Source: Halobellus salinus (GTDB lineage Archaea; Halobacteriota; Halobacteria; Halobacteriales; Haloferacaceae). Taken from it: DNA of 64,000 nt. The notes beneath the pieces were generated by a model, which had not been told where the DNA came from, did no database searches, and saw nothing but the letters and a program-made list of their open reading frames with translations. Position 1 is the stretch's first letter. Each line of letters starts with the position of its first letter. The position numbers and the translations under genes are program-made. Positions 2,031 to 45,072 of the stretch are shown here, piece after piece. The stretch covers positions 1 to 64,000 of the forward strand of contig NZ_BMOC01000013.1 in NCBI RefSeq assembly GCF_014646875.1. The letters run 5' to 3'.

Positions 2031-2520
2031 AGTGCTTTGAGTTCCTATCCGGACCATCATAAGCGTTCTCCAGTTTCCGAACAACGTACTACGAAACTAC
2101 TCGCAGCCGGGAATTTATTCGCTCAGCTCTACTTCTATTGAACGCTATCGCAACGACCGGACCACCCAACGGATCCGACGTTGCGGCAACAGACGCCGCG
2201 ATTCATACTGTTGGCTACTATGTGACGTGTGTCCACATCCTTAGGGTGTCGACATACGTCACGTGACCCTAGCCGATAGTATCAGGAAACAGCCTGCCGA
2301 GGAGCGTGTCATAGAATCATTCTCAACCGAAGACAGACGTGTAGATTGAGTAGTGAGACACCCACCAGATTGGAATGGTATTCGTACTGGTATGCAAGAT
2401 ATAGTGCGCGAATCTTGCAGCCTCGATAGAACGAACACCCGGTGGTGTCCGACGCGAACGTGGCGAGGCGGACGACACAGAGCCCCATTCGCTATAATCG
2501 TGGCGTCTCGATACGGGTAT
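2031..2520. other. Non-coding spacer with promoters and a diverged palindromic element
   Basis: This 490-bp stretch is AT-richer than its surroundings. It holds the mmsA promoter region, including an inverted repeat AGTTTC/GAAACT at about 2067-2093 on either side of a GTAC core, and the diverged 78-bp palindromic element listed separately. The remainder (2283-2520) is open in one frame upstream of the next gene, but it lacks haloarchaeal composition and is not called as coding. Confidence 0.5.
2205..2282. mobile_element. Diverged copy of the 80-bp palindromic MITE
   Basis: The ends ATACTGTTGGCTA and TAGCCGATAGTAT are an imperfect inverted pair, and the interior is self-complementary. It matches the two identical 80-bp elements at 34021-34100 and 43322-43401 in end sequence, total length (78 versus 80 bp) and in keeping a GTGTCGA core. 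It is therefore an older, mutated member. A single C flanks it on each side. It sits between divergently transcribed mmsA and a flavoprotein gene. Confidence 0.7.
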
Positions 2521-12458: not shown

Positions 12459-13328
12459 TCACGTCATCGAGGCCAACCGCGCGATGTAGACCAGGCTGAG
12501 GTGGTGGTCGTCGACGTCGAAGGTCTCGGTCTCGGAGACCTCCCCGGAGAACCCCACGAGGTAATCGCGGAGTTCCGCTTCGACCTCCGCGGCCAGCCAC
12601 TCGACGGTGTGGTAGTACCGGAGCGCGTCCAGTGTCCGCTTGAACCCACCCTTCAGTACGAGGAACTCAAGCCAGTCGAACAGCAGGCGTTCGGCGGCGT
12701 ACGCGTCCGGAAGCGCCGTGAGGTACGGCTTCGACAGTCCCTCCGAGTCCGCGGTTTCGTGGACGAGAAGGTGTTCGAGTTGGTTCTCGCGCAGGGCTTT
12801 TGCGGGGCCGCTCCGGGGGCGCTCCCGAACCTCCGTGTCGAACTGAAAACGACCGACATCCTCGTCGGCGTAGCCGGTGCGGTGACGACCGCCCGAGTCG
12901 TGGCGGGGCCGCCGCTCGTTCCGGCCGCCGGCGTGGCCGTTCCGGTGCCGACCGTCGCCGTCGTCACCGAACCCGAACTCGCGGGCGATCCGGTCGGCGC
13001 GAACCACTTCCTCACCGTCTCGACCGCGGTCGGTGTGCTCCGACCGGCCGTTCCCACCCCGCGGCCGGACGGTAACCTTCCCGGAGGGTGACTCGTCCGA
13101 CGACGCCTGATCCTGACGACTGTCACCGGGCTGCTCCCCGGACCGGCCGTTCCGACGTGGCCCCCGTCGGGCGCCGTTCGACTCGCCTCGGCGGTGCTGT
13201 GGTGGCCCATCTCGGTTGTGACGCCCGTTTTCCGCCCGGTCAGTGCCGTCGGACCGACGTGCGTCCCGCCGGTCGTCGGCGATACGTCTGAGCTCTCGGA
13301 GGTCGTAGTCGTCAGGATCGATTGTCAT
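12459..13328 (-). CDS. Archaellum FlaD/FlaE-domain protein with long disordered N-terminus
   Basis: 289 residues. The C-terminal ~100 residues match the archaeal flagella accessory D/E domain: KPYLTALPDAYAAERLLFDW, then LEFLVLKGGFKRTLDALRYY and VEWLAAEVEAELRDYLVGFS. The N-terminal ~180 residues are low complexity, rich in Arg, Asp, Gly and Asn, and probably disordered. FlaD/E proteins link the archaellum motor with chemotaxis. No archaellin or fla genes are nearby, so this is a stand-alone paralogue. Start MTIDPDDYDLRELRRIADD is preferred over a six-codon upstream extension. A TATA-like CATAAACTC lies 55 bp upstream. Confidence 0.8.
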   Translation of the reverse strand: MTIDPDDYDLRELRRIADDRRDARRSDGTDRAENGRHNRDGPPQHRRGESNGARRGPRRNGRSGEQPGDSRQDQASSDESPSGKVTVRPRGGNGRSEHTDRGRDGEEVVRADRIAREFGFGDDGDGRHRNGHAGGRNERRPRHDSGGRHRTGYADEDVGRFQFDTEVRERPRSGPAKALRENQLEHLLVHETADSEGLSKPYLTALPDAYAAERLLFDWLEFLVLKGGFKRTLDALRYYHTVEWLAAEVEAELRDYLVGFSGEVSETETFDVDDHHLSLVYIARLASMT

Positions 13329-33589: not shown

Positions 33590-34020
33590 ACGCCGAATAT
33601 CCGTCCGTACCCGAAAAGAGCGTTTCCCTTCGGTCTCCGCGCCGGCGTGGCCGCCGGCCGACGGGGGGCGGCGGGACGACGCCACACCAGAAGTCACCTC
33701 CGGGGACGACGGCTCCGCCGGACCCCGACCGCAACGGCTGGGATTCCGCAGCGTATGGCGGCCCCTGCTCGTTCGTTAACGAGTCTCGATCGGGCGTTGG
33801 CGAGCTGTTCGATCACCCGACCCGACGAGCGGGTCCTCGGAGTAGGGTGTGAGACCGATCACCTCACCGATCGGATCGCCGAGTCGGGTGCGGAAGTAGT
33901 CGTGCTCGGCAAGGATGAGGGGTGCTCGCAACAGCGCGGGCCCCGTCCCCGACCCGATGGATCCGGCGGGCCGACGCCCGCGACCTTGACGTCAGAAAGC
34001 CGTTCGATACTGGGGTGTTG

Positions 34021-34100
34021 ATACTGTCGGCTATAGTCGCGTGACGTATTTCGACACCCCGGGGTGTCGAAAATCTTCACGTAGTTATAGCCGACAGTAT
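34021..34100. mobile_element. 80-bp palindromic MITE, copy A, in methyltransferase pseudogene
   Basis: Perfect 15-bp terminal inverted repeats ATACTGTCGGCTATA/TATAGCCGACAGTAT surround a centre containing a perfect 22-bp palindrome (34050-34071). There is no coding capacity. It is identical base for base to copy B at 43322-43401. It splits codons TTG|AGT of the host gene; a G is found on both flanks. Its parental transposase is not in the window. Confidence 0.93.
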
Positions 34101-34104
34101 GAGT

Positions 34105-34194
34105 GCGGTGCTCCACTGGATCGACAGCCGGGAGGCGGTGCTCCACTGGATCGACAGCCGGGAGGCGGTGCTCCACCGGATCGACAGCCGGGAG
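34105..34194 (+). repeat. Three 30-bp tandem repeats
   Basis: Three 30-bp units (34105-34134, 34135-34164, 34165-34194), consensus GCGGTGCTCCACTGGATCGA followed by CAGCCGGGAG. The first two are identical; the third has one T-to-C change. Each encodes AVLHWIDSRE, the conserved post-motif IV block of the broken methyltransferase. This local triplication begins 4 bp after the MITE. Confidence 0.95.
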
Positions 34195-43264: not shown

Positions 43265-44485
43265 GTGGCGATCACGCGCCGCAGGGAGTTCCTGCGTCTC
43301 GGCCTGGCCGGGGCGGTCCTGATACTGTCGGCTATAGTCGCGTGACGTATTTCGACACCCCGGGGTGTCGAAAATCTTCACGTAGTTATAGCCGACAGTA
43401 TGAGTACGGCAGGGTGTTCGCAGGAGTTCACGTCATCACCGGACAACGGGGAGGACGAACGCACGCCACCGGACTTAGACGGGACGACCTTCGAGTTCCG
43501 GTACGATGCCGAGAACCGCCGCGCCGAGGTCGAGTTCACCGGTGGCACGCCGCTCAGAGCCGGAAACGTACAGATCCGGATTGACTCCGGTATGCGGACA
43601 TCTTGGGCAGAACTCGGATCCACGACCGCAGACACCGACCAGCGAATGGAGGTCGGATCAGTCGCGGTGCTCGGCGAGGAGATCATCAACTGGGGGGAGC
43701 CCGTGTCCCCCGACGACTCGATCCGGCTCGTCTACACCGGTCAGGAGACGCCGGCGACACTCGGCCGGTTCGAGCCCGCCACAACCACAACGCTCACCAC
43801 GACAGTCCGGACGACGGCGACACCGACCGAGACGGCGACACCGACCGAGACGGCGACACCGACCGAGGCAACCACGGGGACAGCCACGCCGACCGAGACG
43901 ACCACGGGGACTGCGACACCGACCGAAGCAGCGACGCCGGCCGAGACGGCAACGCAGACCGACACGACCACGCTGGAGGACGACACCCAACCGTCGATCA
44001 CGGCGTTCAGCCTCGCGAACCCGTCGGGTCGCCGGCTCAGGCCATCGTTCGATTCGAGCGAGCGACTCGACGAGGTCACCGTGGAAGTCAGCGGAGCGGA
44101 GTCGACGACACTGACCGCCAGCGCGTTCTCGGAGACGGAGACCCAGGATGGGACGTACCGGTACGAAGCAACGTACACGCCGTCGATCGATGGGGCGTTC
44201 ACCGCAACGCTGCGGCGGGCGGTGGACGCAAGCGGTGACGACGGCGCCAGCGGGCAGTCGGTGCAGTTGTCGGTGATCACTACGGAGACGATCCGGTCCG
44301 CCGACGGGAGTCTCGCGCTCGACCCGCCGGAGTCCGGAGACACGCACGCCGGCTTCTTGGGTGATGTCCGCTACGACGGAACCACGCTGGCTCCAAGCGT
44401 GAGCGCGTCGCCGCGGCTCCCCCCGGTGACCTGTTCCAGTTCGTCGAGCGCGATCGGTTGGAGCGTGTCGAGACGGCTGCGGTGA
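43265..44485 (+). pseudogene. Tat-secreted lipoprotein gene split by an 80-bp MITE in its signal peptide
   Basis: GTG 43265 starts a Tat signal, VAITRRREFLRLGLAGAVL, and the palindromic element follows exactly after the last Leu codon. The element brings an in-frame TGA after seven codons. Directly after it the lipobox resumes as STAGCSQEFTSSPDNGEDER, so joining the two parts restores the lipobox LSTAGC. The mature part has a beta-rich N-domain (TFEFRYDAENRRAEVEFTGG), a Thr/Glu/Pro mucin-like stretch TPTETATPTE repeated (about 43805-43975), and an Ig-like domain (ERLDEVTVEVSGAESTTLTA). The element end supplies a new ATG at 43400, giving a 361-residue product without signal peptide. From about 44375 the frame appears wrong. 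Confidence 0.85.
43322..43401. mobile_element. 80-bp palindromic MITE, copy B, in lipoprotein signal sequence
   Basis: Identical over all 80 bp to copy A at 34021-34100, with the same 15-bp terminal inverted repeats and central 22-bp palindrome. It lies between CTG and GAGTACGG. With one duplicated G, the net insertion is 81 bp (27 codons), so the downstream frame is kept; only the TGA inside stops translation. Confidence 0.93.
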
Positions 44486-45072
44486 GCGGGTACAGAGCTG
44501 TCGACGACTACACCTCGAACGACTACACGCTCCGGATCACGAGTGCTGTCGTCGTCGATAACGATGGCGACAGCGGCCTCGTCTCGATGGAGCTCACGAA
44601 CACGGGTAGCGGGACCATCGAGCTCGACACCCCCAGCTCCTACGTCGGGCAGGAGACGAGTGTGGCTTACCTCGGGTTCGTCGAGTCACAACGCGGAAAC
44701 GGCGACGAGTACAAGTTCTACGTCTCAGAGGACACCCGCCGGAGCTTCTCGGAGGTCGGCCAGTGGGAGACGTACGAGATCGCCGGCTCGATACCGTTTG
44801 TGATGGCATCGAACAGCGACTACTCGGTCGCGGTCGGCGTGGGTGATGGGCCGGCGGATACGAACCTCGCGATGACGGAAACCGATCCGCCTACACTGAT
44901 CCGGATCTTCACGAACCGGGTCGTGCTGGATCCCGAGGAGACGGTGGAGTGGCAGCTTCCGTACACCGGACTCGGGACCGGAGACCTGCCCGCCGACGAG
45001 GCGCGTAACCGGATTGAAGCGGCGTCGTCGCTACCGATCCCGGACGACAGCGAGTGGGAGATCTTCGGGTGA
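44458..45072 (+). CDS. C-terminal fragment of a surface protein (partial or frameshifted)
   Basis: 204 residues as an open frame from TTG, but the same frame is open further upstream (NHAGSKRERVAAAPPGDLFQ before it) without a good start. The content is beta-rich with a typical surface-protein look: LRITSAVVVDNDGDSGLVSM, TIELDTPSSYVGQETSVAYL, NGDEYKFYVSEDTRRSFSEV, ADEARNRIEAASSLPI. No signal peptide is present. Either it is the C-terminus of the lipoprotein gene upstream, joined through a frameshift near 44375-44440, or the 3' end of a second gene whose beginning is lost. The family is not recognised. Confidence 0.5.
   Translation: MERVETAAVSGYRAVDDYTSNDYTLRITSAVVVDNDGDSGLVSMELTNTGSGTIELDTPSSYVGQETSVAYLGFVESQRGNGDEYKFYVSEDTRRSFSEVGQWETYEIAGSIPFVMASNSDYSVAVGVGDGPADTNLAMTETDPPTLIRIFTNRVVLDPEETVEWQLPYTGLGTGDLPADEARNRIEAASSLPIPDDSEWEIFG

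Follow-up and report, generated by a model that had tools for sequence, protein, structure and literature searches.

The window, which is the whole 64,000-nucleotide stretch of DNA analyzed here, carries a lipoprotein gene whose signal peptide region is interrupted by a small palindromic element. The 5′ part of the gene (43265 to 43321, plus strand) has a GTG start and encodes a twin-arginine signal peptide, recognized from its translation and from two homologues (L137 and L258). Translation from the GTG at 43265 yields VAITRRREFLRLGLAGAVL, then ILSAIVA, and then meets an in-frame TGA at 43343 to 43345. The same frame resumes 3′ of the element as (M)STAGCSQEF and is open to 44485. The rest of the gene in its original frame (43403 to 44380, plus strand) comprises the lipobox STAGC, the region shared with homologues, a linker rich in Thr, and a domain of repeat type that other haloarchaeal surface proteins also have.

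The element, at 43323 to 43400 on the plus strand, is a nearly palindromic MITE of exactly 78 bp (TACTGTCGGCTATA...TATAGCCGACAGTA) that has no transposase coding capacity and is present in ~58 copies in the genome; its boundaries were set by an alignment of 56 copies. End counts and the copy alignment place the left terminal inverted repeat (TACTGTCGGCTATA) at 43323 to 43336 and the right one at 43387 to 43400 on the minus strand, the two being perfect over 14 bp. The ends have the form TACTGTCGG and are accompanied by TNA duplications, here TGA at 43320 to 43322 and at 43401 to 43403; the left copy was recognized from the identity of the 3 bp on both flanks and the right one from the copy alignment. 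The 14-bp end was found 58 times in forward and 59 times in reverse orientation in the host genome (3.07 Mb, draft), while a reversed control pattern was found 0 times. As RNA, the MITE is predicted to form a single long hairpin of −49 kcal/mol with a z score of −9.8, and 0 of 200 shuffled sequences folded as well. Given the end counts and the fold, the element is not a product of chance.

With the element removed, the gene reads RREFLRLGLAGAVLSTAGC, and this empty-site reconstruction contains a twin arginine, a short hydrophobic stretch, and a lipobox Cys, the features of a Tat lipoprotein. Element-free homologues from haloarchaea outside the genus read RRQFLRAGLAGSMLGLAGC (L137, in genome G051) and RRKFLTGVVGSGIIGLSGC (L258, in genome G122), and 19 residues, ungapped, separate the twin arginine from the lipobox Cys in the empty-site reading and in both intact homologues. 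Because these two homologues share the empty-site length without a gap, it is a sound reading of the sequence that the ancestral gene would have encoded a Tat lipoprotein, which the element interrupted. The initial annotation had placed a MITE precisely inside a Tat lipoprotein signal, with a correct lipobox restored upon its removal, and both proposals agree with the 78-bp unit, its terminal inverted repeats and target site duplication, and the spacing shared with the homologues. The insertion had also been described as 81 bp, made up of the element plus one G. The net insertion is indeed 81 bp and the downstream frame is therefore kept, but the insertion is better described as the 78-bp MITE plus one copy of the 3-bp TGA duplication. 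The TGA within the element that had been reported to stop translation does lie in the gene's frame (43343 to 43345, plus strand, by translation). In the genomes of the genus that were sampled, no N-terminal homologue of the lipoprotein, and hence no empty orthologous site, was found; the gene is therefore sporadic.

The 56 aligned genome copies are 78 bp long, except for one of 77 bp. Nearly all are flanked by a duplication of TGA or TCA (TSA), with TAA in one, and the context is often CTSAG. Of the 51 copies of full length, 27 match the window copy exactly and the other 24 depart from it by 1 to 3 bases; the burst is therefore recent. Repeats within the same genome occur both with and without the element: three members of one set are filled (L083, L075, and L036) and a fourth has a clean single TGA (L182), and in a second pair one repeat is filled (L073) and the other is empty (L114). 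The element is therefore multicopy, bears terminal inverted repeats and target duplications, and has both filled and empty paralogous sites, as MITEs do.

A second copy in the window (34022 to 34099, plus strand; TGA duplication) adjoins a short tandem repeat; the repeat, with a unit of ~30 bp (GGATCGACAGCCGGGAGGCGGTGCTCCACT), follows the copy in the interval from 34019 to 34180. Sequence comparison also revealed a diverged 76-bp relative at 2206 to 2281 (plus strand; TCA duplication). Related elements were found across the genus, and Haloarcula plasmids and one Halomicrobium plasmid carry them too. In 15 diverged copies, the arms vary in concert: two-sided changes affected 13 of 32 pairs between the arms, compared with 4 to 7 when the partner was slid. 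A 24-bp mini-derivative (L077:2001-2024) consists of the MITE ends fused, with the center gone and TCA on both flanks. Solitary TGATACTGTCGGC motifs were seen at gene stop codons in other genomes (L118, L120, L121, L124, L125, L127, L128, L130, and L132). We considered a host regulatory motif as an explanation for them and rejected it: in several, both the right end, ~78 bp away, and the central palindrome are decayed, and for that reason the solitary motifs look like very old copies. A description of this compact haloarchaeal MITE family was not found in the literature searched.

Elements of the IS5 and PIF-Harbinger type generate a 3-bp TNA target duplication, a feature that the element described here shares with them (TGA, TCA, and rarely TAA). 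The perfect 3-bp TNA duplication points, we assume, to a DDE transposase of the IS5/PIF-Harbinger kind. No transposase carrying the same inverted repeat turned up here: the MITE ends were absent from the 16 DDE_Tnp_1 loci of the genome, there was no match to PF13586, and no parent transposon was detected in ~0.8 Mb of the genome, small contigs included, on the Halomicrobium plasmid with several copies, or in two viral-contig scans. On one viral contig (L341), a pair of ends 1400 bp apart encloses phage-like genes; we took this pairing to be due to chance and rejected it as the parent. In Haloquadratum, some MITEs are known for which the genome holds no functional parent transposase (PMC3119063).

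Insertions into coding sequence are rare. Based on a simple codon-usage gene caller made for this analysis, 12 of 94 copies in two genomes lie in coding sequence, whereas 62% would be expected from the control TSA sites of those stretches. Apart from the lipoprotein gene, three genes hit in their coding sequence were examined, and each is damaged independently of the MITE. At L071, a fragment of the malate synthase gene AceB lacks its 5′ part and lies beside a TnpB-like remnant; at L241, the host is O-demethylase-like and its frame is broken; and at L065, fragments of a permease and of DUF7530 are fused. Of the three phases, NNT|SAN alone can be read through the MITE, on both strands, and would add a 27-residue insert to a protein; the phase of the window copy is closed. 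Copies in the open phase were found at four loci (L071, L088, L212, and L241), with recognizable genes at L071 and L241 only. Since both of these hosts are broken genes, there is no sign of the in-frame use known from Rickettsia. Although an open phase exists, we rejected use of the element as a 27-residue protein insert, all identifiable hosts being damaged at other places.

The lipoprotein gene carries a second lesion as well. A sliding codon-usage score shows the coding signal switching frame between 44365 and 44460 on the plus strand, ahead of a premature end at 44485. What is left of the C-terminal coding region lies in the shifted frame at 44458 to 45072 (plus strand) and has no separate signal peptide. 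This second frame break is present in one draft assembly, in which a sequencing error is possible. With the frame shifted near 44380 to 44440, the gene would end early at 44485 even without the MITE.

These observations bear on the proposal of the initial annotation that the element serves as an on/off switch for a surface lipoprotein. Under that proposal, precise excision of the MITE at an appreciable frequency would bring the lipoprotein back in a fraction of the cells. The insertion, including its target site duplication, is an exact multiple of three, the empty site gives a good Tat lipobox gene, and clean empty sites are present elsewhere in the genome, all of which would suit a switch. 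The empty sites elsewhere are equally explained as never having been hit, however, and neither a recombinase nor a transposase was seen in the vicinity of the lipoprotein gene. Moreover, few copies lie in coding sequence, those with identifiable hosts being in broken genes, and a phase-variable gene should be otherwise intact, whereas this one has a second frame break in the present assembly. We consider a switch extremely improbable.

Because the second lesion lies further downstream, we favor an ordinary dead gene, the alternative that the initial annotation had itself named and the better reading in light of the second frame break and of the broken hosts of other copies. With a probability of roughly 0.86, the locus records a recent insertion of a trans-mobilized MITE into a lipoprotein gene that is dispensable or decaying. 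A DDE transposase, acting in trans on TNA targets (here TGA), would mobilize the nonautonomous 78-bp MITE, which would then insert into the signal peptide region of a gene for a Tat-exported lipoprotein and duplicate TGA. In this phase, the in-frame TGA of the MITE would stop translation from the native start, so that the product would end after 26 residues and the lipoprotein would be lost. As the downstream frame has been lost as well, the gene is probably decaying and dispensable, and the insertion would be effectively permanent. The element with its ends, duplication, and copy number, the scarcity of coding copies, the reading of the empty site, and, for the present assembly, the second frame break are shown directly; the type of transposase, the order of the two lesions, and the absence of function are what we infer.

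The initial annotation had also drawn attention to an ATG at the element end, from which a signal-less cytoplasmic protein might be made. This ATG is present and in frame (43400 to 43402, plus strand), formed by the last base of the MITE and the TG of the duplication, and a long open frame follows it to 44485. It is nothing special, however: the MITE ends in TA, so any TGA target gives ATGA, and the same ATGA is created by every TGA-target copy. The product would also place a secreted-type domain and a Thr-rich linker in the cytoplasm, shortened by the frame break. Production of such a protein is very improbable.

Outside coding sequence, copies were found exactly on stop codons more often than expected. 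In the same two genomes, and with the same gene calls, 19 of 82 noncoding copies coincide with a stop codon (odds ratio of 4.4 versus other noncoding TSA sites; P = 2e-6); compared with noncoding sites ≤60 nucleotides from a gene 3′ end, the excess is 2.5-fold (P = 0.02). These copies, at TGA or TAA stops, comprise L051, L052, L054, L058, L060, L061, L062, L066, and L081 in genome G000 and ten copies within L208 to L239 in genome G004; others lie on the Halomicrobium plasmid (L203, L204, and L206), where three clear copies abut the annotated stop codons at 12940, 70886, and 150402. Strict stop-codon specificity was rejected as a rule, with just 19 of 94 copies at stops. A gene hit exactly on its stop codon keeps a stop and gains a long hairpin directly 3′ of it.

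The excess could arise if the element prefers such targets, if selection favors harmless sites, or if the 3′ hairpin is of use, the first two being likelier. If the hairpin were useful, the family would be kept in part through stop-codon insertions that supply a strong hairpin as a 3′-end or transcript-stability signal, and the copy in the lipoprotein gene would be off-target. The stop-codon excess among the noncoding copies, the plasmid copies at annotated stops, the decayed copies in relatives that also abut stop codons, and the maintenance of the hairpin through two-sided changes are in keeping with such a role. Selection against hits in promoters and coding sequence can yield the same bias, however, and near gene 3′ ends the excess is just 2.5-fold, so that we regard such retention as unlikely. 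It is likewise doubtful that this haloarchaeal family prefers TGA stops, duplicates the stop, and thereby spreads 3′ regulatory hairpins without harm to coding sequence.

Like the MITEs described in Haloquadratum walsbyi, the element is short and noncoding, has terminal inverted repeats and target duplications, and is present in many copies (PMC3119063). It differs from them in its length of 78 bp, its near-palindromic sequence throughout, its TSA target, and its 3-bp duplication. Insertions of Haloquadratum MITEs into other elements were reported mostly in PATEs and IS605-type transposons (PMC3119063), whereas most of the copies studied here occupy intergenic positions and stop codons. Palindromic elements of Rickettsia and RU elements of enterobacteria occur inside genes (PMC10969869, PMC2759123); the element resembles them as a small palindrome able to sit inside genes, with one of its three phases open. 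In contrast to those elements, the window copy has its phase closed and terminates translation, and the open-phase copies with recognizable genes sit in otherwise broken genes.

Taken as a whole, the family illustrates how a tiny, high-copy-number MITE molds haloarchaeal genomes, with coding copies rare and the identifiable ones located in decaying genes. The stop codon appears to be an unusually common safe landing place for such an element, and the window copy offers a clean example of the probable insertional loss of a surface lipoprotein.
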